Origin: Blastococcus sp.
Lineage (GTDB): Bacteria; Actinomycetota; Actinomycetes; Mycobacteriales; Geodermatophilaceae
NCBI GenBank assembly: GCA_025965715.1
Contig: JAOPWJ010000134.1
Span: forward strand, 1-37,092
Reading direction: 5' to 3'
DNA: 37,092 nucleotides
Under the pieces are notes generated by a model that worked only from the letters and a program-made list of their open reading frames with translations, searched no databases and was not told where the DNA came from. Of the stretch, positions 12,654 through 33,309 are shown one piece after another. Made by a program: the position numbers and the translations under genes. Numbering within the stretch: position 1 is the first letter of the stretch; each line of letters opens with the position of its first letter.

Positions 12654-13313
12654 ATGACCGCACTGCTCGCCGCTGCCGCGGGCCTGCTCGGGCTGGCCGT
12701 CGCAGTTCTCGTCAACCGCGCCGCCGGCCGCTATCCCTGGGACGGGCCGGGGCCCCGCGGCCGGGCGACCGCGGTCCGGCCCCCCGTGGTGGAGATCGGG
12801 ACGGCGCTGCTGTTCGCGCTCGTCGCGCTGCGCTTCGGCTCCTCCTGGGAACTGCCGGCCTACCTCTTCCTCGCCGGGTCCGCGGTGCTCCTGGCCGTCA
12901 TCGATCTGCAGCACCACAAGCTGCCCAACCGGGTGGTTCTCCCGTCGATCGCCGTGGGCGCCGTGCTGCTGACCGGAGCGGCGGCGGGGGAGCAGGCCTG
13001 GCCGGCGCTGCTGCGGGCCGGGGGGGCCGGCACCGTCCTCTTCGCGGTCTATCTGGTGCTCGCGCTGATCTCGCCACGGAGCCTCGGCATGGGCGACGTG
13101 AAGCTTGCGGCCCTCCTCGGGCTCTACCTGGGATGGCTGGGCTGGGGCGCCGTCGTGCTCGGTGCGGCCGCGGGGTTCGCCGTCCAGGCGCTCGTGGCAC
13201 TGGTCCTCCTCGCGGGGCGGCGGGTGAGCCTGCGCGGCGAGCTGCCGTTCGGTCCCGCGATGCTCCTCGGCGCCGCCGTCGTCATCGGCTGGAGCGGTTC
13301 CCTGCTTCCCTGA
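12654..13313 (+). CDS. Prepilin peptidase (type IV A24, TadV/CpaA-like)
   Basis: A 219-residue membrane aspartic protease. The two catalytic aspartates are seen: Asp84 in AVIDLQHHKLPN and Asp148 in the GMGDVK motif. About six hydrophobic segments are present. The N-terminal methyltransferase/zinc domain of full PilD enzymes is absent, as in TadV-type enzymes of Tad systems. It would cleave the Flp pilin and TadE-type pseudopilins downstream at the membrane. ATG at 12654 has ACAGGGA before it; a nearby ATG (12640) is out of frame. It lies 186 bp before flp and may have its own promoter. Confidence 0.9.
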   Translation: MTALLAAAAGLLGLAVAVLVNRAAGRYPWDGPGPRGRATAVRPPVVEIGTALLFALVALRFGSSWELPAYLFLAGSAVLLAVIDLQHHKLPNRVVLPSIAVGAVLLTGAAAGEQAWPALLRAGGAGTVLFAVYLVLALISPRSLGMGDVKLAALLGLYLGWLGWGAVVLGAAAGFAVQALVALVLLAGRRVSLRGELPFGPAMLLGAAVVIGWSGSLLP

Positions 13314-13415
13314 GCAGCCCGTCGGCGCTCACACAGCGTGACTTCGAGTGCGTTCGTGCACCCGTAGGAGTGGCCGGTCTCCTCCATGAGAGGGGTTCAC
13401 CCTCAAGTCGGCCGG

Positions 13416-13431
13416 GATGTCGCACGACATC
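13416..13431. promoter_or_regulatory. Palindrome GATGTCG-CA-CGACATC upstream of flp
   Basis: Perfect 7-base arms around two bases, 69 bp before the flp start, in the 186-bp gap after the peptidase gene. Size and place suit a dimeric regulator's operator for pilin expression. No regulator is encoded next to it, and promoter elements around it are not clear. Confidence 0.45.
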
Positions 13432-13499
13432 ACTCCCACAGCCGCGAGGCCGGGTCACCCGATCCGGACCGGCCGGCCGACACCCCTCAGGAGCAGCAC

Positions 13500-13709
13500 G
13501 TGCAGAAGGCCTACGCCACCCTTGTCAGCCTCATCGCCATCGCCCAGGACCGCCTCGAGCGGGACGAGAAGGGTGCGACCGCCGTCGAGTACGGCCTCAT
13601 GGTCGGCCTGATCGCCGTCGTGATCATCGGTGCCGTCACCCTGCTGGGTGGCGAGCTCAAGAGCCTGTTCGAGACCGTCCAGGGCAAGCTCGGCGCCATC
13701 CCCAAGTGA
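13500..13709 (+). CDS. flp: Flp-type (type IVb) pilin precursor
   Basis: A 69-residue pilin. A leader of about 24 residues (MQKAYATLVSLIAIAQDRLERDEKG) ends in Gly and is followed by ATAVEYG, the class IVb cleavage motif with Glu at +5 and Tyr at +6. A hydrophobic helix (LMVGLIAVVIIGAVTLLGG) and a short polar end complete the mature pilin of about 44 residues. The GTG at 13500 was chosen because AGGAG lies 8 bases before it; the frame is open back to 13386 but that gives an unusual leader. The strong hairpin just after the gene would raise pilin over downstream products. Confidence 0.92.
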   Translation: MQKAYATLVSLIAIAQDRLERDEKGATAVEYGLMVGLIAVVIIGAVTLLGGELKSLFETVQGKLGAIPK

Positions 13710-13740
13710 CCTCGCACTGAGTCCAGGTCGCGGCTGTCCC

Positions 13741-13777
13741 GGCGCAGCGGCCCCGCACCACGCGGGGCCGCTGCGCC
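13741..13777 (+). terminator. 16-bp-stem hairpin after flp (attenuator-like)
   Basis: GGCGCAGCGGCCCCGC (13741-13756) and its exact complement (13762-13777) enclose the loop ACCAC, 31 bases after the flp stop and 28 bases before the tadE start. No T-tract follows. It is likely to stop most transcripts after flp or protect its 3' end, with read-through for the assembly genes. Confidence 0.8.
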
Positions 13778-13805
13778 GCTGCACGAGGAGAGGTGGTGAG
13801 CGGGA

Positions 13806-14216
13806 ATGCGGATGCGGCTGCGTCACGAGCGCGGTGCCAGCGCGGTGGAGTTCGCCTTCATCCTTCCGCTGCTCATCCTGCTCGTGCTCGGCATCGCCGA
13901 GTTCGGCCACGCCTTCCAGGTGCAGGGAACGCTCTCGGCCGCCGCCCGCGAAGGCGTGCGGGCGATGGCGCTGCGCAACGACCCGGCCGACGCCCGTGCC
14001 GTCGTCCGGGACGCCGCGTCATTCCTGGATCCCGGCATCACCGACGCGCAGATCTCGATCAAGGTCGTGGGCGGCACCGCGACCACCTGCCCTGCGACCG
14101 ACGCCGGCACGACCGCCGTGCGCCTCACCATCACCTATCCGATGCCCTTCCTCACGAGCTTCTTCGGGTCGAGCGTCACTCTGACCGGAACGGGGGTCAT
14201 GCGATGCAACGGATGA
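13806..14216 (+). CDS. tadE: TadE-like pseudopilin
   Basis: A 136-residue protein with the TadE plan: basic N-terminus (MRMRLRHERG), cleavage site G|ASAVEF with Glu at +5, then a long hydrophobic segment (FAFILPLLILLVLGIAEFG), followed by about 100 extracytoplasmic residues with AAREGVRAMAL, usual for the family. Two cysteines lie in the exported part (TTCPATD and the terminal MRCNG), possibly a disulfide. ATG at 13806 has AGGAGAGG upstream. The last 13 bases overlap the next gene, so translation is probably coupled. Confidence 0.88.
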   Translation: MRMRLRHERGASAVEFAFILPLLILLVLGIAEFGHAFQVQGTLSAAAREGVRAMALRNDPADARAVVRDAASFLDPGITDAQISIKVVGGTATTCPATDAGTTAVRLTITYPMPFLTSFFGSSVTLTGTGVMRCNG

Positions 14217-15181
14217 CCGGCCGTCTCCGCCGCCGGGTCGCCGGCGAGCGCGGCGCCGCCGCGGTGATGCTCTCGCTGCTCCTCGTGCCGATGCTCGGCT
14301 TCGCCGCCATCGCCGTCGACGTGGGGTCGCTCTACGCCGAGCGCGCCCGGCTCCAGGTAGCGGCCGATGCCGCCGCGATCGCCGTCGCGCAGGACTGCTC
14401 CCGCGGCAACTGCGGCGACATGCTGGCCACGGCGCAGAGCCTGGTCACCGCCAACGACGGCGACGCGACGGCGGCGCACCCGGAGCTCACCAGCGACCCG
14501 CACACCGTCACCGTCACCGGGAGCACCCCCGAGGAGCACTGGTTCGCCCCCGTCATCGGCTTCGACTCGACCGCCGTCTCCGCGACCGCGACCGTCGGCT
14601 GGGGCGGCCCGAGCAACGGCACGGCACTCCTGCCGCTCGCCTTCTCCTGGTGCTCCTTCAAGGCTCAGACGGGCGGCGGCATCCCGTCGACCACGACCCT
14701 GCAGACCATCCTGCTGAGCAAGACCGCCGACGCACCGCAATGCGTCGGGCCCTCCGGCCTGAACGTTCCCGGGGGCTTCGGCTACCTCGTGACCGACCCC
14801 GGGACCTGCAAGGTCACCAGCGCCATCCACCGGTGGATGTACTCCGACACCGGCAACGGGCCCCCCTCGGCCTGCGCGTCCAAGGACTTCTCCGCCTTCC
14901 TCGGCAAGACGGTGCTGATGCCGATCTATGACTCGGTCGACGGACAGGGGAGCAGCGGCCGGTACCGGGTGTACGGCTACGCGGCCTTCCACCTGACCGG
15001 CTATCACCTGGTCCCCGGCCAGTTCAGCACCCAGAACAAGCTGTGCGGTCAGGGGCAGGGCAGCAACGACAAGCGCTGCGTGACCGGCTACTTCACCCGC
15101 TTCGTCGAACTCTCCGACGCCTGGAACTACAGCCCGGACGCACCGCAGCTGGGCTCCTCCGTCCTCCGACTGATCCGATGA
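14204..15181 (+). CDS. TadG-like pilus assembly protein with cysteine-rich exported domain
   Basis: A 325-residue protein. The N-terminus has RVAGERGAAAVMLSLLLVP, a hydrophobic segment and DVGSLYAERARLQVAADAAAIA, which is the TadG/Flp-associated pattern. Its ERGAAAVML lacks the Glu at +5 that Flp and TadE carry, so it may be an uncleaved anchor. The exported part (about 55-325) contains repeated cysteines (DCSRGNC, WCSF, PQCVG, GTCKV, SACAS, KLCGQ, RCVTG), consistent with several disulfides, and no von Willebrand domain that I can see. It overlaps tadE by 13 bases and lies 13 bp before cpaB. Confidence 0.82.
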   Translation: MQRMTGRLRRRVAGERGAAAVMLSLLLVPMLGFAAIAVDVGSLYAERARLQVAADAAAIAVAQDCSRGNCGDMLATAQSLVTANDGDATAAHPELTSDPHTVTVTGSTPEEHWFAPVIGFDSTAVSATATVGWGGPSNGTALLPLAFSWCSFKAQTGGGIPSTTTLQTILLSKTADAPQCVGPSGLNVPGGFGYLVTDPGTCKVTSAIHRWMYSDTGNGPPSACASKDFSAFLGKTVLMPIYDSVDGQGSSGRYRVYGYAAFHLTGYHLVPGQFSTQNKLCGQGQGSNDKRCVTGYFTRFVELSDAWNYSPDAPQLGSSVLRLIR

Positions 15182-15194
15182 AGGGACGCCTCTC

Positions 15195-15944
15195 GTGAGA
15201 CGACGTCTTGTCGCCGCCTCCGCGGCCCTCGTCCTGTTCGTCGTCGGCGCGCTGGTGCTGGTGGCCTACGTGCGCGGCGCGGACGCCCGCGCCCTCGCCG
15301 GCGCGCAGCCCGTCCAGGTGCTGGTCGTGGACCAGCCGGTTCCCGCCGGCACTCCCGGCGAGGAGCTGGCCGAGTACGTCCGCAGCGACATCCTGCCGGC
15401 CAAGGCCGCGGTCGAGGGCCGGGTCGCCGACCTCGCCGCCCTCGACGGCCTGGTCGCCACCACCGACCTCGAGCCCGGCGAGCAGCTGCTCGCCAGCCGG
15501 TTCGAGCAGCCCGACCAACGTCAGGCGGCAGGGACTGTCCAGGTCCCGACGGGTCTGCAGGAGGTCAGCGTGCTGCTCGACCCGCAGCGCGCAGTGGGCG
15601 GCCGGCTGGCCGCCGGCGACACGGTGGGCGTCTACCTGTCCCAGGTGCTCGGTGACCTGAAGCAGACACACGGCGTCCTGCACCGCGTGCTCGTCACCCA
15701 GGTGCAGGGCGCGCCCGCGGCGCCGGACCCCGCGGCCGCGGCGGGCACGGAGACGGCGGCGTCGAGCAGTGCCCCGGCGTCGAGCCTGATGGTCACGCTG
15801 GCCGTCGACGCCCAGGACGCCGAGACGGTGATCTTCGGCGCGGAGCACGGAACCCTCTGGCTCTCGCTGGAGCCCGAGGGCTCGGAGACCGGCGGCACGC
15901 GCGTGGTCCAGCCCGAGAACGTCTACGGAGGAGTGCCCCGATGA
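15195..15944 (+). CDS. cpaB: CpaB/RcpC-type Flp pilus assembly protein (SAF domain)
   Basis: A 249-residue protein: one N-terminal membrane anchor (RRLVAASAALVLFVVGALVLVAYV), then a SAF-type region (VLVVDQPVPAGTP, VATTDLEPGEQLLASRF) and the RcpC part (VSVLLDPQRAVGGRLAAGDTVGVYL). An Ala/Ser-rich linker (about 175-195) precedes the last strands. In Gram-negatives CpaB works with the secretin, absent here; in actinobacteria it is retained in Tad loci with an unclear role. The start is GTG at 15195. It overlaps cpaE by 4 bases (ATGA). Confidence 0.88.
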   Translation: MRRRLVAASAALVLFVVGALVLVAYVRGADARALAGAQPVQVLVVDQPVPAGTPGEELAEYVRSDILPAKAAVEGRVADLAALDGLVATTDLEPGEQLLASRFEQPDQRQAAGTVQVPTGLQEVSVLLDPQRAVGGRLAAGDTVGVYLSQVLGDLKQTHGVLHRVLVTQVQGAPAAPDPAAAAGTETAASSSAPASSLMVTLAVDAQDAETVIFGAEHGTLWLSLEPEGSETGGTRVVQPENVYGGVPR

Positions 15945-17131
15945 GCCGCGTCGTGGTGGCCGGAGCCGATGAAGACCTGATCCTCCGCGTCAAGGAGGCC
16001 GCCGACGGCGACGTGGCCGTCCTTCCGCCGGGCCGGTTGCCCGGCGACCCGGCCCGCCTGTTCGAGCAACTCGTCGACGGTGAGCTGCCCGACGTCCTGC
16101 TGGTCGGCCCGCACGCGCCGGCCCCCGAGGTGCTGACCCTGGCCGCCCGGCTCGACGTGCAGAGCCCCGGCATCGCCGTCGTCCTCATGGCCGAGCCGTC
16201 GGCGCAGATGTGGCAGGCCGCCATGCGGGCCGGCATCCGTGACCTCCTCGACCCGGCCGCCGGTGCCGACGAGATCCGGGCCGCCGTGGACCGCGCCGGG
16301 CAGGCGGCCGCGAGCCGCCGCCGCGTCCTGCGCCCGCCGGCCGAGACCGAGCGTTACGCCGGCCGCGTCATCACCGTCGCCTCACCCAAGGGCGGCGTGG
16401 GCAAGACCACCGTGTCGACGAACCTCGCCATCGGGCTCACCGCGGCGGCGCCGCAGTCGACCGTGCTCGTCGACCTCGACGTGCAGTTCGGGGACGTCGC
16501 CTCCGCGCTGGGTCTGGTGCCGGAGTACACGCTGCCCGACGCCGTCCGCGGGCCGGCGAGCGAGGACACGATGGTCCTCAAGACCTTCCTCACCCAGCAC
16601 CCCAGCGGTCTCTACGCCGTCTGCGGCGCAGAGTCACCGGCCGCCGGCGACACCGTGAACGGCGAGGATGTCACCCGGCTGCTGGCCTCGCTCGCCCGCG
16701 AGTTCCGCTACGTCGTCGTGGACACCGCGCCCGGCCTGTCCGAGCAGACGCTCGCCGCACTGGACCGCGCCTCGGACGTCGTCATGCTCACGAGCATGGA
16801 CGTCCCCGGCGTCCGAGGGCTGCGCAAGGAGCTCGACGTGCTGCGGGAGCTGGCCATGATCCCGGCCGGCCGGCACGTGGTCATGAACTTCGCCGACCCC
16901 AAGGGCGGGCTCTCCGTGCGCGACGTGGAGACCACGATCGGTGCCGGTGTGGACGTCGTGCTGCCGCGCTCGAAGAATGTTCCCGCGTCCACCAACCGCG
17001 GCGTGCCCATCCTGCAGAGCCATCGGCGTGACCCCATGGCCAAGGAGATGCAGCGACTGGTGTCGCGGTTCGCCGCCACTCCGCTCATGAAGCCCGGCAA
17101 GTACCGGGCCAAGCACCGGGCGGCCGGCTGA
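15941..17131 (+). CDS. cpaE: CpaE/TadZ-type ParA-like localisation ATPase
   Basis: A 396-residue protein: an N-terminal receiver-like domain without the usual phospho-Asp context (about 1-125; IRDLLDPAAGADEIRAAV near its end), then a MinD/ParA-type ATPase. The deviant Walker A is SPKGGVGKTT (148-157). Further motifs are VLVDLDVQFGDVASALGL and YVVVDTAPGLSEQTLAALD. TadZ proteins mark the site of pilus assembly at the inner face of the membrane. Start and stop overlap the neighbours (4 bases with cpaB, 1 with cpaF), the mark of one tightly coupled operon. Confidence 0.92.
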   Translation: MSRVVVAGADEDLILRVKEAADGDVAVLPPGRLPGDPARLFEQLVDGELPDVLLVGPHAPAPEVLTLAARLDVQSPGIAVVLMAEPSAQMWQAAMRAGIRDLLDPAAGADEIRAAVDRAGQAAASRRRVLRPPAETERYAGRVITVASPKGGVGKTTVSTNLAIGLTAAAPQSTVLVDLDVQFGDVASALGLVPEYTLPDAVRGPASEDTMVLKTFLTQHPSGLYAVCGAESPAAGDTVNGEDVTRLLASLAREFRYVVVDTAPGLSEQTLAALDRASDVVMLTSMDVPGVRGLRKELDVLRELAMIPAGRHVVMNFADPKGGLSVRDVETTIGAGVDVVLPRSKNVPASTNRGVPILQSHRRDPMAKEMQRLVSRFAATPLMKPGKYRAKHRAAG

Positions 17132-18555
17132 TGAACCTCACCGAACGCCTCGAGGCCGCACGTGGTGGGATTCGGCCGGTCACCGCGACCCCCGCCGCCC
17201 CCGCGTCGGCCGCCCCCCTGTCACCGTCCCGGCCTGCGAGCGCACCGTCGCCCACCCCGCCCACGGACGCCCTCGCCAAGCTGAAGGACCGCGTCGGCAA
17301 GGCGTTGTTCGAGCGCATGGGCAGCCGGATGAACGACCCCAGCCTGAGTGCCGACGCGCTGCGCACGATCGTGCTGGGCGAGCTCGACGTGGTGGTCGAG
17401 GAGGAGAACGTCCCGCTCAGCACCGACGAGCGGCAGCGGCTCACCGCCGAGCTCGCCGACGACGTGCTCGGCTACGGGCCGCTGCAACGGCTGCTCAACG
17501 ACGACCTGGTCACCGAGATCATGGTGAACGGGCCCGACTCGATCTACGTCGAGCGCGGGGGGAAACTGGAGCGCACCGCCACCCGGTTCACCTCCGAGGA
17601 GCACCTGCGCCGGGTCATCGACCGGATCGTGTCCCGCGTGGGACGGCGCATCGACGAGTCCTCACCGCTGGTCGACGCCCGCCTCGCCGACGGATCGCGC
17701 GTCAACGCGATCATTCCGCCGCTGGCCTTCAGCGGCTCCACGCTGACCATCCGCAAGTTCTCCAAGGACCCCTTCACCGTCGACGACCTGATCAACTTCG
17801 GCACGCTGTCCCCGGAGATGGCGGAGCTGCTGCACGCGTGCGTCGAGGCCCGGCTGAACGTCATCGTCTCGGGCGGCACGGGGACCGGGAAGACGACGCT
17901 GCTCAACGTGCTGTCGTCGTTCATCCCGAACGGCGAGCGGATCATCACCATCGAGGACGCCGTCGAGCTGCAGCTGCAGCAGGAGCACGTGGTCCGGCTG
18001 GAGTCCCGGCCGCCCAACATCGAGGGCAAGGGCGCGATCACCATCCGCGACCTGGTCCGCAACTCGCTCCGCATGCGGCCCGACCGCATCGTCGTCGGCG
18101 AATGCCGGGGTGGCGAGAGCCTGGACATGCTCCAGGCGATGAACACCGGCCACGACGGCTCGCTGTCGACCGTGCACGCCAACTCGCCCCGCGACGGGAT
18201 CGCCCGCCTGGAGACCCTGGTCCTGATGGCCGGGATGGACCTGCCGCTGCGGGCCATCCGCGAGCAGATCGCCTCCGCCGTGGACGTCGTCGTGCAGCTC
18301 ACCCGCCTGCGCGACGGCACCCGCCGGGTCACCCACGTCACCGAGGTGCAGGGCATGGAGGGGGAGACGGTCACCCTGCAGGACGCCTTCCTCTTCGACT
18401 ACTCCGCCGGCGTCGACGCGCACGGCACGTTCCTCGGCAAGCCGGTGCCCACCGGCGTCCGCCCCCGGTTCACCGATCGCTTCGACGACCTGGGCATCAA
18501 GCTGTCGCCGCGGGTCTTCGGAGCGGTCGCCCCGGTCGGCACGCGGAGCTGGTGA
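17131..18555 (+). CDS. tadA: CpaF/TadA secretion ATPase
   Basis: A 474-residue hexameric motor ATPase of the type II/IV secretion family. After an Ala/Pro-rich leader (about 15-48) comes the N-domain (LADDVLGYGPLQRLL, VTEIMVNGPDSIYVERGG). Walker A is GGTGTGKTT (248-256), followed by an Asp box (ITIEDAVELQL), Walker B region (RMRPDRIVVGECRGGE) and His box (GHDGSLSTVHANSP). All catalytic motifs are present. It powers Flp pilus extension, and in some Tad systems retraction, with TadB/TadC in the membrane. ATG at 17131 overlaps the cpaE stop. Confidence 0.95.
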   Translation: MNLTERLEAARGGIRPVTATPAAPASAAPLSPSRPASAPSPTPPTDALAKLKDRVGKALFERMGSRMNDPSLSADALRTIVLGELDVVVEEENVPLSTDERQRLTAELADDVLGYGPLQRLLNDDLVTEIMVNGPDSIYVERGGKLERTATRFTSEEHLRRVIDRIVSRVGRRIDESSPLVDARLADGSRVNAIIPPLAFSGSTLTIRKFSKDPFTVDDLINFGTLSPEMAELLHACVEARLNVIVSGGTGTGKTTLLNVLSSFIPNGERIITIEDAVELQLQQEHVVRLESRPPNIEGKGAITIRDLVRNSLRMRPDRIVVGECRGGESLDMLQAMNTGHDGSLSTVHANSPRDGIARLETLVLMAGMDLPLRAIREQIASAVDVVVQLTRLRDGTRRVTHVTEVQGMEGETVTLQDAFLFDYSAGVDAHGTFLGKPVPTGVRPRFTDRFDDLGIKLSPRVFGAVAPVGTRSW

Positions 18556-18557
18556 CC

Positions 18558-19499
18558 ATGTCCCCGGCCCTCCTGGTGCTCGGCCTCGCCGCGGTCGCTG
18601 CCGCGTTCCTGCTCCTCGCTCTCGTCGTCCTTCCGGCAGGGCACCGGCGCGTGCCGCTGAGCCGGCTCGACCCCTCCGCGGCGCCGCCGTCCTCGGCCTT
18701 GTCCGGTGCCGGTGCCGCAGCGGGCGCTGCGGTGGAGAAGGCGCTCGCCAGGCGCGGTCGCCTCGCCGAGGGTGCCGCGGCGCTGGAGCGGGCCGGAATG
18801 ACGATGCGGCTGCCCGACTTCGTCCTCGCCGTCGGCCTGGCCACCGTGGCCGCCGGCGTGCTCGGCTTCGCCCTGGCCGGGGTGGTCGTCGGGCTGTTGC
18901 TCGCGGCCGCCGCGCCGCTGGGCGCCAAGCTGCTGCTGAAGTTCCGTGCGAGCCGTCGTCAGGCCGCCTTCGCCGACCAGCTCGACGACTCCCTGCAGCT
19001 CATGGCCGGGAGCCTCCGCGCCGGCCACAGCCTGCTGCGGGCGGTCGACTCCGTCTCGCAGGAGGCTGATACGCCGACGTCGGAGGAGTTCTCCCGGATC
19101 GTCAACGAGACCCGCGTCGGCCGCGACCTCAACGACGCCCTCGACGAGGTGGCCGCCCGGATGGGCAGCGACGACTTCGTCTGGGTGGCCCAGGCCATCG
19201 CCATCCACCGTGAGGTCGGCGGCAACCTGGCCGAGGTGCTCGACGCCGTCAGCCACACCATCCGCGAGCGCAACGCCATCCGCCGTCAGGTGAAGGCGCT
19301 GTCGGCGGAGGGGAAGCTCTCGGCCGTCGTGCTGATGGCGCTGCCCTTCGGTGTCACCGGCTTCATCTCGCTGACCAACCCGGCGTACCTGTCCCGGTTC
19401 ACCGAGAGCTTCATGGGCTACGCCATGCTGGCCGTGGCCGCGTTCATGCTGCTCGTCGGCGGGCTGTGGCTCAGGAAGACCGTGCGGATCCAGTTCTGA
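18558..19499 (+). CDS. tadB: TadB-type inner-membrane platform protein
   Basis: A 313-residue protein of the type II secretion F family. The N-terminal membrane segment (LLVLGLAAVAAAFLLLALVVL) is followed by a second segment pair (about 90-125), a cytoplasmic domain with FADQLDDSLQLMAGSLRAGHSLLRAV and GRDLNDALDEVAARM, and two C-terminal membrane segments. LQLMAGSLRAGHS is the typical F-domain signature of TadB. The start could also be GTG at 18552, which overlaps the cpaF stop. Its stop overlaps tadC by one base. Confidence 0.9.
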   Translation: MSPALLVLGLAAVAAAFLLLALVVLPAGHRRVPLSRLDPSAAPPSSALSGAGAAAGAAVEKALARRGRLAEGAAALERAGMTMRLPDFVLAVGLATVAAGVLGFALAGVVVGLLLAAAAPLGAKLLLKFRASRRQAAFADQLDDSLQLMAGSLRAGHSLLRAVDSVSQEADTPTSEEFSRIVNETRVGRDLNDALDEVAARMGSDDFVWVAQAIAIHREVGGNLAEVLDAVSHTIRERNAIRRQVKALSAEGKLSAVVLMALPFGVTGFISLTNPAYLSRFTESFMGYAMLAVAAFMLLVGGLWLRKTVRIQF

Positions 19500-20410
19500 T
19501 GGCCACCGTTCCCGCTCCCGTGCTCGCCGCGGCACTGGCCGTCGCCCTCGCCCTGCCGCTGTTGGGCTGGTCGATGTTCGCCCGGCCTGGCAGCACGGCC
19601 GTCCAGGCGCGCGAGAACCTGGTCCGTGGCATCGCGCTCACCGGCACCGGCGTCGGGACCGCCTCCGCCGCAGGCCGGGGTGGTGCGGGCCTGCTCACCC
19701 GGCTGGTCGGGGCGCTGACGCCCCGCAGCACCGTGGCCCGTCTCAACCGGCTGGCCGGCACCGCAGGTCGCCCCGCGGCGTGGCCGCTTCCGCGGCTGGT
19801 GGCCGCGAAGGTGGTGCTCGCGGCCGTGGCCGGCGGCCTCGGCCTGATGCTCGTGAGCGGCGGGCCGAGCCTGGTGACCGTGGTGCTCGCGGCCACGGTC
19901 ACCGTCGTCGCCTACTTCCTGCCCGAACTGCTGCTCTACAGCCGTGGTCAGGAGCGGCAGGACGCCATCGGGCTCGAGCTGGCCGACACCCTCGATCAGA
20001 TGACCATCGCCGTCGAGGCCGGTCTGGGCTTCGAGTCGGCCATGGCGCGGGCCGGCGCGAACGGCAAGGGGCCGTTGGCCGAGGAGCTGGTGCGCACCCT
20101 GCAGGACATTGCCGTCGGGCAGCCGCGGCGCGAGGCCTACCTGGCGCTCGCCGAGCGGACCGGCGTCAAGGATCTCGCGCGGTTCATCCGCGCCGTCGTC
20201 CAGGCCGACGCCTACGGGGTCTCGATCGCCGACGTGCTGCGCACCCAGGCGCAGGAGATGCGGCTCAAGCGCCGGCAGCGGGCCGAGGAGAAGGCGATGC
20301 AGATCCCGGTCAAGGTGATCTTCCCGCTCATCCTGTGCATCCTGCCGACGCTGTTCATCGTGCTGCTCGGCCCCGCGGTCATGGACATCGTCGCGGTCTT
20401 CGGCGGGTGA
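19499..20410 (+). CDS. tadC: TadC-type inner-membrane platform protein
   Basis: A 303-residue partner of TadB with the same F-domain plan: N-terminal membrane segment (VLAAALAVALALPLLG), a central segment pair (about 100-140), cytoplasmic LELADTLDQMTIAVEAGLGFESAMARA, DLARFIRAVVQADAYGVSIADVLRTQA and RQRAEEKAMQIPVKVIFPLILCILP. TadB and TadC together form the platform on which the ATPase acts. ATG at 19499 overlaps the tadB stop. The operon ends 5 bases later in a strong hairpin. Confidence 0.9.
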   Translation: MATVPAPVLAAALAVALALPLLGWSMFARPGSTAVQARENLVRGIALTGTGVGTASAAGRGGAGLLTRLVGALTPRSTVARLNRLAGTAGRPAAWPLPRLVAAKVVLAAVAGGLGLMLVSGGPSLVTVVLAATVTVVAYFLPELLLYSRGQERQDAIGLELADTLDQMTIAVEAGLGFESAMARAGANGKGPLAEELVRTLQDIAVGQPRREAYLALAERTGVKDLARFIRAVVQADAYGVSIADVLRTQAQEMRLKRRQRAEEKAMQIPVKVIFPLILCILPTLFIVLLGPAVMDIVAVFGG

Positions 20411-29937: not shown

Positions 29938-30247
29938 GGGTGCATCCTCGTCCGCCGGACGGTGCCCCGGCCAGGTGGGTGGGCATCCGCGCGCGACCAG
30001 GGACGACGGGCAGCGGCGGGCCCACCGTGACTGGGTGCCCGAGTGCCGGCCATCGAGGTGCTCGACGGCGGGAGCCCTTGCTGGCCCCGGCAGCTCCCGG
30101 GTCCCCGCGGCGACCTGGCCGCGGGCGGGGCAGGCGCCGCCGACCTCGCCCGCGCGGGCTTCTGCGACGCCTCCGAGTGCCGTCCGCTCTCGCTCGGACG
30201 AGCGGACACGGAGTTTCGAGAGCGAGAGTTAGTTCTAGACTCCCGTC
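29938..30247. other. Divergent intergenic region with candidate leaderless promoter
   Basis: No gene is supported in these 310 bases. Near the right end TAGACT (30236-30241) resembles a -10 box whose expected start point falls on or next to the ATG at 30248, implying a leaderless transcript for the regulator. Upstream lie CGCTCG-GA-CGAGCG (30191-30204) and GTCCGCT/AGCGGAC (30182-30188, 30201-30207), and GAGT...ACTC flanks the -10 region. The -35 is weak. Confidence 0.45.
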
Positions 30248-30940
30248 ATGGACGAGACCCGGACGGCGCAGGTCGCAGCGGTGGCCGCCCTCGCGGAGCC
30301 GACCCGCCGCCGCCTGTACGACCATGTCGTCCGGCAGGCCGCGCCGGTGAGCCGCGACGAGGCGGCGGTCGCCGTGGGCGTTCCTCGCGCCACTGTCGCC
30401 TTCCACCTGGACCGGCTGGTCGACGACGGCCTGCTGGACGTCGTCTTCGAGCGGCGAACCGGCCGCACCGGACCCGGCGCCGGTCGCCCGTCGAAGCTCT
30501 ACCGGCGGGCGGAGTGCTCGGTGTCGGTCTCCCTTCCGGAGCGCCGGTACGACCTGGCGGGTGAGCTCCTCGCCGCATCCCTGGCCGAGGCCGAGCGCAC
30601 CGGCGAGCGGCCCGGTGCCGTGCTCGATCGGCGCGCGTTCGCTCGCGGTCGGGAGCTGGCCGGCGAGGTGGCGAGCGCGGATCCGGACGCGGCGCTGCGC
30701 GTGCTCGAGGGCCACGGCTTCGAGCCGCGGCGGGAGGGGGAGGGGATCGTGCTGGCGAACTGTCCGTTCCACGTCCTTGCCCGAGACCACACGGAGCTGG
30801 TCTGCGGAATGAACGTCCGGCTGCTCGAGGGGCTGCTCGACGGGTTGCCCGGGGCAGGGTTCGAGGCCCGCCTGCGTCCGACGCCAGGCATGTGCTGCGT
30901 TCGGCTCGAGCGCTTGCATCCCGGGCCCGGAGGCGGTTGA
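30248..30940 (+). CDS. SufR-like winged-helix regulator with C-terminal cysteines
   Basis: A 230-residue regulator. An ArsR/SufR-type winged helix spans about 8-82 (LAEPTRRRLYDHVV, VSRDEAAVAVGVPRATVAFHLDRLVDDGLL, wing with RTGPGAGRPSKLYRR). The C-terminal domain carries cysteines at 172 and 186 (NCPFHVLARDHTELVCGMN) and a Cys pair at 216-217 (PGMCCV), plus one at 90. Known SufR proteins use a similar N-C-P-x-H...C region to hold an iron-sulfur cluster; the spacing here (C-x13-C-x29-CC) differs from the classic four-Cys SufR pattern, so cluster binding is inference. No ribosome binding site precedes the ATG, fitting leaderless translation. The downstream promoter begins inside its stop codon. 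Confidence 0.85.
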   Translation: MDETRTAQVAAVAALAEPTRRRLYDHVVRQAAPVSRDEAAVAVGVPRATVAFHLDRLVDDGLLDVVFERRTGRTGPGAGRPSKLYRRAECSVSVSLPERRYDLAGELLAASLAEAERTGERPGAVLDRRAFARGRELAGEVASADPDAALRVLEGHGFEPRREGEGIVLANCPFHVLARDHTELVCGMNVRLLEGLLDGLPGAGFEARLRPTPGMCCVRLERLHPGPGGG

Positions 30941-30965
30941 CAGGAGCGGCCGGCGGGTCTCTACT
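30937..30965 (+). promoter_or_regulatory. Promoter for the doxX-folE-reductase operon
   Basis: A perfect -35 TTGACA (30937-30942, overlapping the regulator stop) and a -10 TCTACT (30960-30965) with a 17-base spacer. The predicted start lies in the adjoining inverted repeat. It is one of the clearest sigma-70-type promoters in the window. Confidence 0.75.
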
Positions 30966-30966
30966 C

Positions 30967-30986
30967 CTAACCATCATTGGTTTTAG
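30967..30986. promoter_or_regulatory. Operator-like inverted repeat AACCA-TCAT-TGGTT
   Basis: The repeat, with CTA/TAG flanks, lies directly after the -10 box and covers the predicted transcription start, where a bound repressor would block the polymerase. AAGGAG (30987-30992) and the ATG at 30999 follow. The regulator encoded just upstream is the natural candidate to bind; the pentamer CTAAC also occurs (other strand) in that gene's own -10 region. Confidence 0.65.
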
Positions 30987-30998
30987 AAGGAGCCCGCC

Positions 30999-31439
30999 AT
31001 GACCCTCCACCTGAACCGCTCCCGGATTCCCGCCGCCATCGGTGCCGACCCCGCTCTCCAGGCCTTCCTGCTGCTGCGCACGGCCTTCACCGTGGCGCCG
31101 ATCGTCTTCGGCCTCGACAAGTTCACGAACCTGCTCACCGACTGGCCGGGCTACCTGGCGCCCTGGATCGACGGCATCGTGCCGGGCAGCGCGCAGCAGG
31201 CGATGTACGGCGTGGGGGTCGTCGAGATCGTCGCGGGTGCCGCCGTCGCCGTCGTGCCCCGGTTCGGCGGCTGGCTGGTCGCCGCCTGGCTCGGCGGGAT
31301 CATCCTGAACCTGCTGACGGTCCCCGGTTTCTACGACGTGGCCCTGCGCGACGTCGGGCTCCTGGTCGCGGCCGTGGCACTGGCCCGGCTCGCCTCGGTC
31401 TACGCCCCCGGCCGCCCCTCGACCCGCTTCCGGGCATGA
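30999..31439 (+). CDS. DoxX-family membrane protein
   Basis: A 146-residue protein with four membrane segments: ALQAFLLLRTAFTVAPIVFGLDKFTNLL, MYGVGVVEIVAGAAVAVV, WLVAAWLGGIILNLLTV and DVGLLVAAVALARLA. The R-x-x-x-x-x-x-P-I-x-F-G-x-x-K start and the VGVVEIVAG motif are DoxX-like. In mycobacteria a DoxX protein works with superoxide dismutase and a sulfurtransferase in oxidant defence; that role is not proven for this branch. It starts after AAGGAG, under the promoter at 30937-30965, and overlaps folE by 4 bases (ATGA). Confidence 0.85.
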   Translation: MTLHLNRSRIPAAIGADPALQAFLLLRTAFTVAPIVFGLDKFTNLLTDWPGYLAPWIDGIVPGSAQQAMYGVGVVEIVAGAAVAVVPRFGGWLVAAWLGGIILNLLTVPGFYDVALRDVGLLVAAVALARLASVYAPGRPSTRFRA

Positions 31440-32065
31440 GCACGCCGCAGTGGACCGGTGCGGCGGACGGCCGCGCCATTGCGCTCCGGGTGGTGCGCGA
31501 GCGCGGCGCCATCGACGCTCCGGCCGCCGAGCGTGCGGTCGCCGACCTCCTCCGCGCGCTCGGCAAGGACCCGGCCGAGCCCCACCTGGCCGACACGCCA
31601 CGCCGGGTGGCCGACGCCTACGCCGAGCTGCTGACGGGGCGCCAGTTCGACCTGACCACCTTTCCCAACGACGAGGGCTACAACGAACTCGTCCTCGCCA
31701 CCGGCCTCCCGGTCCAGTCGCTGTGCGAGCACCACCTGCTGCCCTTCTCCGGGGTCGCGCACATCGGCTACCTGCCCGACGACCGCATCCTCGGGCTGTC
31801 GAAGCTCGCTCGCGTGCTCGAGCTGTTCGCGCGGGACCTGCAGGTGCAGGAACGGCTCACCCAGCAGGTCGCCGACTGGTTGCAGGAACACCTCGCACCC
31901 CGAGGTGTGGGCGTGGTGATCGAGGCCGAGCACCTGTGCATGTCCCTGCGCGGTGTCCGGGCCCCCGGCGCCCGGACCATCACCTCCGCCCTGCACGGCC
32001 TGCTCCGCGACGACGGCCGTTCGCGGCAGGAGTTCTTCGCGCTGGCCGGTACCGGCTCCCGCTGA
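31436..32065 (+). CDS. folE: GTP cyclohydrolase I (FolE-type), in a redox operon
   Basis: A 209-residue GTP cyclohydrolase I, making dihydroneopterin triphosphate from GTP. The zinc ligands are Cys97 and His100 (LCEHHLLPFSG) and Cys168 (EHLCMSLRG). HIGYLPDDRILGLSKLARVLELFARDLQVQERLTQQ and DTPRRVADAY are family signatures. No other folate gene (folP, folB, folK) is near, unlike the usual ftsH-folE-folP cluster, so this is probably a second copy. It overlaps doxX by 4 bases and precedes the flavoprotein by 20 bp. Its pterin product might serve a role other than folate; inference. Confidence 0.93.
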   Translation: MSTPQWTGAADGRAIALRVVRERGAIDAPAAERAVADLLRALGKDPAEPHLADTPRRVADAYAELLTGRQFDLTTFPNDEGYNELVLATGLPVQSLCEHHLLPFSGVAHIGYLPDDRILGLSKLARVLELFARDLQVQERLTQQVADWLQEHLAPRGVGVVIEAEHLCMSLRGVRAPGARTITSALHGLLRDDGRSRQEFFALAGTGSR

Positions 32066-32085
32066 TCGAGAGAAGGCTGATCCGC

Positions 32086-33309
32086 ATGACCTCCCAGGAC
32101 GCGTTCGTGATCGTCGGCGCCGGGCTCGCCGGCGCCAAGGCAGCCGAGACCCTGCGCGGCGAGGGATTCGACGGGCCGGTGGTGCTGGTCGGGGCGGAGC
32201 AGGAGCTCCCGTACGAGCGGCCGCCGTTGTCCAAGGGCTACCTGGCCGGCACCGCGTCGCGGGAGAGTGCCGCGGTCCACGCCGTCGACTGGTTCGGACA
32301 GCACGACGTCGAACTGCGCACCGGCGTGCGGGCGACGGCGCTGGACCCGGCCGCCCACCGCCTGACCCTCGACACCGGCGCAGCGCTCGGCTACGCCCGG
32401 CTGCTGCTCGCCACCGGATCCTCCGCGCGGCGGCTGTCCCTGCCCGGCGCCGACCTCGACGGTGTCCGGTACCTGCGCACCCTGCCCGACGCCGACCGCC
32501 TGCTCGCCGACCTCTCCGGTGGTGGGCGGGAGGTCGTCATCGTGGGCGCGGGGTGGATCGGCCTCGAGGTCGCCGCCGCCGCCCGGGCCCACGGCAACGC
32601 GGTCACCGTCGTCGAGCCCCGGCCGACTCCGCTGCACGCCGTCCTGGGGCCGGTCATGGGCGACGTCTTCGCGCGCCTGCACCGCGAGCACGGGGTCACG
32701 CTCCTGACCGGTACGGGCGTCCGAGAGTTCCGCGGCCGCGGGGGCCGGGTGGCGGCCGTGGTCACCGACCGCGGGGAGCTGCCGGCGGACGTCGTCCTCG
32801 TGGGCGTGGGAGCGGTGCCCAACACCGAGCTCGCCGCCGAGGCCGGTCTGGAGGCGGGCAACGGCGTCCTGACCGACGCCGCCCTGCGCACCTCGGCACC
32901 GGACGTCTTCGCCGCCGGGGACGTCGCCGCCGCGCTCCATCCGCTCTACGGCCGCCACGTGCGGGTCGAGCACTGGGCGAACGCCCTCAACCAGGGGCCC
33001 GCGGCGGCGCGATCAATGCTCGGCCGGGTGGTCAGCTACGACCGGGTGCCGTACTTCTACACCGATCAGTACGACCTCGGAATGGAGTACTCGGGGCTGG
33101 GTGGCCCGGGCGACACCGTGGTCTGCCGGGGCAACCCCGAGGACGGCGCGTTCATCGCCTTCTGGCTCGACGACGGCCGGGTCACCGCCGGCATGAACGT
33201 CAACGTATGGGACGTGAGCGGCCCCATCCAGGAGCTGATCCGCTCGGGCCGACCGGTCGACGTCGGGCGGTTGACCGACCTCGACGTCGCACTGGAGGAG
33301 GTCTTCTGA
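32086..33309 (+). CDS. FAD-dependent NAD(P)H oxidoreductase, ferredoxin-reductase type
   Basis: A 407-residue flavoprotein of the putidaredoxin/rhodocoxin-reductase group. The FAD-binding fold starts VIVGAGLAGAKAAETLR, with YERPPLSKGYLAG; the NAD-binding fold is VVIVGAGWIGLEVAAAARAHG; the second FAD motif is VFAAGDVAAALHP with the usual RVEHWANALNQG. The C-terminal reductase domain (YFYTDQYDLGMEYSGL) is present. Such enzymes pass electrons to ferredoxins; none is encoded here. ATG at 32086 follows AGAAGG. It is the last gene of the doxX-folE operon. Confidence 0.92.
   Translation: MTSQDAFVIVGAGLAGAKAAETLRGEGFDGPVVLVGAEQELPYERPPLSKGYLAGTASRESAAVHAVDWFGQHDVELRTGVRATALDPAAHRLTLDTGAALGYARLLLATGSSARRLSLPGADLDGVRYLRTLPDADRLLADLSGGGREVVIVGAGWIGLEVAAAARAHGNAVTVVEPRPTPLHAVLGPVMGDVFARLHREHGVTLLTGTGVREFRGRGGRVAAVVTDRGELPADVVLVGVGAVPNTELAAEAGLEAGNGVLTDAALRTSAPDVFAAGDVAAALHPLYGRHVRVEHWANALNQGPAAARSMLGRVVSYDRVPYFYTDQYDLGMEYSGLGGPGDTVVCRGNPEDGAFIAFWLDDGRVTAGMNVNVWDVSGPIQELIRSGRPVDVGRLTDLDVALEEVF

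Follow-up and report, generated by a model that had tools for sequence, protein, structure and literature searches.

Four adjacent genes in a 37,092-nucleotide stretch of Blastococcus sp. DNA (assembly GCA_025965715.1, contig JAOPWJ010000134.1; the whole stretch is called the window here) raise the question whether a regulator of the winged helix-turn-helix (wHTH) type governs the DoxX-like membrane protein, the GTP cyclohydrolase I (FolE) and the ferredoxin-reductase-type flavoprotein encoded behind it, and which signal it would answer. A sequence-only reading had seen here a redox-sensing operon headed by a SufR-like regulator. Its four genes were recovered as open reading frames (ORFs) in the positions and order it gave, with junctions that overlap or nearly touch: the DoxX-like and FolE ORFs share an ATGA, and 20 bp separate FolE from the reductase. 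The linkage of these genes, the conservation of an operator, the invariant cysteines of the regulator, the paralogy of FolE and the scarcity of sites elsewhere in the genomes searched were observed in the sequences. Our preferred reading, to which we give about an even chance, is that an ArnR-like iron-sulfur (Fe-S) repressor, probably responsive to nitric oxide (NO), switches this small redox/pterin operon, a self-contained stress operon of actinobacteria.

Linkage was examined in loci chosen in different ways. A class-wide search with DoxX as probe gave matches in 37 of 296 genomes; 37 loci were examined, one weak match being left out, and contig ends make the counts minima. A regulator homologue was adjacent in 33 of the 37, and within 4 kb FolE was found in at least 10, the reductase in at least 13 and all genes together in at least 6, so that the set of four is not the fixed unit that had been supposed. 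The named set was chosen by the regulator as the best 80 of 554 relatives, with patterns over GPGAGRP and NCPF; the regulator was called in 78 of these loci, over which the counts were taken. Here DoxX or FolE adjoined the regulator in 75/78 loci (65 divergent, 10 tandem), FolE lay no more than 3 kb from it in 42 and the reductase no more than 4 kb away in 28; 12 loci had the complete set of four. FolE directly adjoined the regulator in 26 of the 78, 25 of them having no adjacent DoxX, and a DUF2231 membrane protein (cluster of 17 members) often replaces DoxX in DoxX-less loci. Many Streptomyces loci have the regulator-DoxX pair with neither FolE nor reductase behind it. Recurrent linkage, in 75/78 regulator-chosen and 33/37 DoxX-chosen loci, rules out a strain-specific accident and bears out the expectation that the association extends beyond this strain. 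The gene unit is modular: its constant part is the regulator with the membrane protein and/or FolE, to which the reductase is often added. No further constant partner was found; the commonest neighbour families, among the 25 of 197 listed, were each present in 4 of 150 scanned neighbours. Homologues of all four genes are present in locus L046, and in L101, L102, L103, L105, L107 and L122 an additional membrane protein of about 140 amino acids (cluster c9; one member searched, without Pfam match) directly precedes FolE.

The DoxX gene is preceded by a perfect TTGACA that starts in the regulator stop codon, as the sequence-only reading had stated, and by a -10 region TCTACT (30960-30965) 17 bp after it. 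The inverted repeat that had been noticed on this promoter is present and conserved, and it forms the middle of a longer site of 30 bp, of which the window matches 9/10 arm bases. The inner palindrome also occurs in L004, L142, L144 and L150, and in L166 with one change. The operator rule was read from the intergenic regions of a first locus set and then scored in the named set, with a threshold of 8/10 arm bases or better and promoters alike in the last 60 bases counted once; the two promoter sets overlap in organisms. In the first set 31/33 DoxX promoters, 4/6 FolE promoters and 7/15 DUF2231 promoters reached the threshold; in the named set these were 43/47 (35 at 10/10), 13/24 and 0/1, against means of 1.6 (maximum 7) for DoxX and 0.5 for FolE in dinucleotide shuffles. 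A spacing of 20 stood out among those from 8 to 26, being found in 74/80 DoxX promoters (mononucleotide-shuffle mean 2.4), and TTGAC starts 20-23 bp ahead of the operator in 70 of the 98 promoters that bear one.

When 30 of the 37 DoxX-bearing genomes were scanned, 17 exact sites were found, 13 of them at this locus; the reversed pattern gave 18 exact sites in the same genomes, and 14 of the 30 had no exact site. The source genome (80% complete) contains two sites at no more than one mismatch, one of which is the operator in the window. A global regulator with many sites is not supported by the four exact sites off the locus, and the regulator looks local, as exact sites elsewhere do not exceed the control. 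At the regulator's own start, TAGA was found 8-9 bp before a regulator start codon in 10 of the 12 tandem loci examined; it abuts the start in L141, is absent in L151 and in L145 precedes an ATG that lies upstream of the start as called. The full 30-bp rule was matched there at 5/10 in the window and at 6-7/10 in ten other tandem loci; L141 reaches 9/10, at another place. The TAGA hints at autoregulation through a putative site whose complete form mostly scores weakly, at 5 to 7 of 10.

Regarding the type of regulator, the protein (REG) matches Pfam HTH_20 (E=3.6e-11). The N-terminal half of its AlphaFold2 model (mean predicted local distance difference test, pLDDT, 88) resembles ArsR wHTH structures with a weak Foldseek E of about 7e-3, and the search of the PDB with this model was uninformative on the C-terminal half. 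The cysteines of REG, C172-X13-C186-X29-C216 and the adjacent C217, are all invariant in 55/55 homologues (at least 39% identity) from loci fetched by DoxX or FolE. The cluster-type cysteines that had been claimed thus hold as a sequence feature. ArnR of Corynebacterium glutamicum has three cysteines in all (Cys179, Cys193 and Cys223) and is described as a [4Fe-4S] protein that acts as a repressor of nar and hmp and releases DNA when nitrosylated; bound zinc and a weak match to the zinc-bound TRAPPC3 fold are also noted there (PMC12343034). The cluster cysteines of the SufR protein Rv1460 are C203, C216 and C244, i.e. X12/X27 (PMC6034842), and by eye the same X12/X27 spacing is seen in the SufR of L289. 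The spacing of REG is the X13/X29 of ArnR, with the adjacent Cys217. Single-seed searches for SufB, SufD and SufU found no homologue near the regulator in 55 + 78 loci (E<=1e-8), and those for SufS and SufC gave scattered matches only, which were taken for other aminotransferases and ABC proteins. The SufR label of the sequence-only reading was rejected on the cysteine spacing and on this absence of SufB, SufD and SufU. By its sequence, the regulator is ArnR-like and probably a carrier of an Fe-S cluster.

Those paralogs that neighbour nar operons (L333-L335), and further ones of which some neighbour fdxA and ctaD-like genes, have C-X13/14-C-X27/31-C and no Cys-Cys pair. In a 28-row tree, which contains no proven ArnR sequence, REG forms a clade of its own (support 87/97); next to it stands a group of nar-linked and other paralogs whose support is weak (83/54). 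On Rhodococcus plasmids a second ArnR-like paralog lies divergent from fdxA and a ctaD gene (L138:7914-11431, L139:7904-12309). A small membrane protein is encoded behind it, together in L139 with a gene that by eye resembles a truncated globin, and the DoxX(-FolE) unit is nearby.

FolE is a GTP cyclohydrolase I by Pfam (GTP_cyclohydroI, E=7.7e-64) and by TIGR00063 (190.3 bits, cut-off 181.6), and its Cys97, His100 and Cys168 stand at what we take to be the zinc-ligand positions of the Escherichia coli enzyme. A FolE search was positive in 291 of 296 genomes, including a more similar second group. In a tree of 68 rows, a branch with a Shimodaira-Hasegawa-like approximate likelihood ratio (SH-aLRT) support of 99 split 20 less similar rows, labelled housekeeping by similarity alone, from 48 rows of the second group, to which the FolE of the window belongs and of which 30 lie near the regulator. 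The source genome's other folE, of the first kind, is a fragment at a contig edge (G000:C48, L357) beside a folP-like frame. Some second-clade FolE genes (L126, L133, L136) have no regulator and adjoin a small folB-like gene, with a folK-like neighbour in L133 and L136 and one like 6-pyruvoyl-tetrahydropterin synthase (PTPS) in L126, all named by eye. Near the regulator, searches with single seeds of PTPS-like, FolB-like and FolK-like proteins came up empty in the 55 + 78 loci (E<=1e-8), so the product of FolE either enters the ordinary folate path or is used as is.

The membrane protein is, as far as its model goes, a divergent DoxX with a four-helix fold. It scores 18.4 bits against Pfam DoxX, below the cut-off of 23.6; its AlphaFold2 model (pLDDT 91) has four long helices and best matches NACHO/TMEM35A in the PDB (template modelling score 0.67/0.73, but E=0.094), and on Rhodococcus plasmids its homologues carry the annotation DoxX. 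The thiol-type DoxX that had been supposed is unlikely, since the protein of the window has no cysteine and no Cys/His column reaches 60% in 47 homologues. The reductase combines Pyr_redox_2 (E=3.3e-68) with a Reductase_C domain; its best PDB matches are 3lxd and 1q1r, and it stays below the curated cut-off in all NCBIfam families listed (25 of 59). It has a single cysteine, hence no CxxC disulfide. One cysteine in the reductase and none in the DoxX-like protein make a thiol relay unlikely; transfer of electrons to a ferredoxin or quinone is the more plausible route.

The surroundings of some loci bear on the signal. In L052, L055 and L058, from related genomes, the regulator has nar genes next to it (narI and narJ called by Pfam; narG, narH and narK by length and order). 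The DoxX side of these loci carries tgs1-like (WS_DGAT), Pyridox_ox-like and DevR-like genes, and a DevS-like gene in L055 and L058; these genes we take to be tied to the mycobacterial DosR regulon. A DosR-type box was sought with an exact GGGAC-N6-8-GTCCC scan, which gave five matches, none at regulator promoters. Dormancy-type seeds other than DevR/DevS were found at 15/55 and 20/78 regulator loci against 0/20 random regions (Fisher p 0.008 and 0.010), an enrichment that is only a hint because several seeds came from the same loci and the control stretches were shorter. Within one family, narI was present in 22 of 26 genomes with the regulator (E<1e-30) and in 60 of the remaining 125 (Fisher p=0.0009, without correction for phylogeny).

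Features of the locus are collected in the Table. It is flanked upstream by nadE on the other strand and downstream by glutamine synthetase, and the order nadE-regulator-DoxX-FolE-reductase-glutamine synthetase is repeated in the Geodermatophilaceae loci L143, L145, L148, L150 and L166, where at most four extra genes separate nadE from the regulator. Elsewhere in the window a co-directional gene run (12654-20410) resembles, by eye, a Tad/Flp pilus cluster.

Table. Genes and putative regulatory elements of the locus, in window positions
Feature	Position	Strand	Remark
Regulator ORF (REG, ArnR-like wHTH)	30248-30940	+	230 amino acids
DoxX-like ORF (four-helix membrane protein)	30999-31439	+	146 amino acids
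FolE ORF (GTP cyclohydrolase I paralog)	31436-32065	+	209 amino acids
Reductase ORF (flavin adenine dinucleotide/NAD(P)H ferredoxin-reductase-type flavoprotein)	32086-33309	+	407 amino acids
-35 element TTGACA	30937-30942	+	overlaps regulator stop codon
Putative 30-bp operator, near TTCTA-N20-TAGAA	30959-30988	+	covers -10, ends 10 bp before DoxX start
Inner palindrome AACCA-TCAT-TGGTT	30969-30982	+	centre of 30-bp site
Putative operator half-site (GTTAGTTCTAGAC)	30228..30240	+	directly before regulator start

In the mechanism that we propose, a winged-helix dimer of the regulator would hold a [4Fe-4S] cluster through C172, C186, C216 and possibly C217. So long as the cluster is intact, it would block transcription from the DoxX promoter by occupying the 30-bp inverted repeat that covers the -10 region, and perhaps also occupy the weaker site at its own start. 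NO, or another cluster-damaging signal encountered under low oxygen or nitrate respiration, would release it. This would allow the membrane protein (DoxX here, DUF2231 elsewhere), the second GTP cyclohydrolase I and the flavoprotein to be made, and these may support electron flow and pterin supply during stress. Repression by an Fe-S form and its release by NO are transferred from ArnR by analogy; the cluster, the repression, NO as the signal and what the operon does in metabolism are all inferred.

Several observations weigh against this mechanism. The operator is missing at 8/10 from 28 of 126 promoters, among them 9 of the 16 of the DUF2231 type and those of L143 and L148, two loci whose synteny is close to that of the window. 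The REG profile scores the nar regulator of L333 at 45.3 bits and a SufR at a suf operon at 46.5 bits, whereas other paralogs are nearer to it (67 to 98 bits). The L333 regulator would be a true ArnR judging by its nar neighbours; as it is no nearer in profile score than SufR, and REG has its own clade, REG is called ArnR-like and not ArnR. Adjacency to nar was seen in 3/55 loci, all of one genus, and in 0/78 named loci, and the operon of the window contains no nar gene; the dormancy-type seeds stem partly from the loci tested. FolE and reductase are often absent, hence no single pathway fits every locus; and since the named loci are the best 80 of 554 relatives, remoter homologues may behave differently.

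This variability would suit genes that share a stress-responsive promoter but no pathway, with DoxX as the real target and FolE and reductase as lineage-specific passengers. The pairing of regulator and DoxX is near constant (33/37) while FolE (10/37) and reductase (13/37) vary, and the many Streptomyces pairs fit as well. The association of FolE is recurrent nonetheless, since it stands beside the regulator in 26/78 named loci (25 without adjacent DoxX) and belongs to a separate clade, and we regard such passengers as somewhat unlikely. The same operon with an Fe-S regulator might also answer to an oxidant or to iron or Fe-S limitation by SufR-like sensing, much as the sequence-only reading had proposed: REG shares the wHTH-plus-cysteine architecture of SufR as well as the 46.5 bits, and a ferredoxin reductase would suit such stress. 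This signal appears unlikely in view of the X13/X29 spacing, against the X12/X27 of SufR, the result of the SufB/SufD/SufU searches, and the nar and dormancy-type neighbours, which point to NO or low oxygen.

A third possibility is an ArsR-type thiol or metal (e.g. zinc) sensor devoid of Fe-S, in which the Cys-Cys pair would be a zinc site or disulfide switch. The ArsR-like wHTH fold, the adjacent Cys216-Cys217, unlike the three cysteines of ArnR, and the zinc and TRAPPC3 match noted for ArnR all agree with it. Three of the four cysteines match in spacing those of a proven [4Fe-4S] protein, and we hold the sensor to be improbable. More doubtful still is a dedicated pterin pathway induced by NO or hypoxia, in which the dihydropterin of FolE would be a redox cofactor or a scavenger of NO/peroxynitrite rather than a folate precursor. 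The flavoprotein would keep it reduced, DoxX/DUF2231 would connect it with the quinone pool, and its regulators would be a new [4Fe-4S](Cys)4-type subfamily of ArnR-like sensors using Cys216-Cys217. The reduced pterin or redox carrier recycled by reductase and DoxX, as the sequence-only reading had it, found no direct support.

The literature searches gave no paper joining GTP cyclohydrolase and DoxX with actinobacteria or DosR, and looser ones, judged by title and the start of the abstract, none describing this operon, which is apparently undescribed. The analysis defines a widespread actinobacterial regulator subfamily with its operator and main target promoter, the signal and function of which are directly testable in laboratory strains. 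It places the second FolE clade and the membrane proteins DoxX and DUF2231 in a regulated context, and it offers a comparison from nature for the effect of a fourth cysteine on an ArnR-like cluster.

Compared with known systems, REG is like ArnR in its wHTH with a C-terminal sensory domain, its C-X13-C-X29-C spacing and its actinobacterial hosts; narKGHJI is the target operon of ArnR and adjoins three REG genes. It differs in the fourth invariant Cys217 and in standing at DoxX/FolE/reductase promoters, and its clade is separate from the nar-linked and fdxA-linked paralogs. With SufR of the Rv1460 type it shares a wHTH repressor with C-terminal cluster cysteines, whereas SufR has its own spacing and regulates the suf operon. 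The FolE of the window has the domain of the main actinobacterial group and keeps the three zinc-ligand positions, but lies across the SH-aLRT branch from it. The reductase has the Pyr_redox_2 and Reductase_C domains of the BphA4/putidaredoxin-reductase family, but the operon of the window contains neither a ferredoxin nor an oxygenase.

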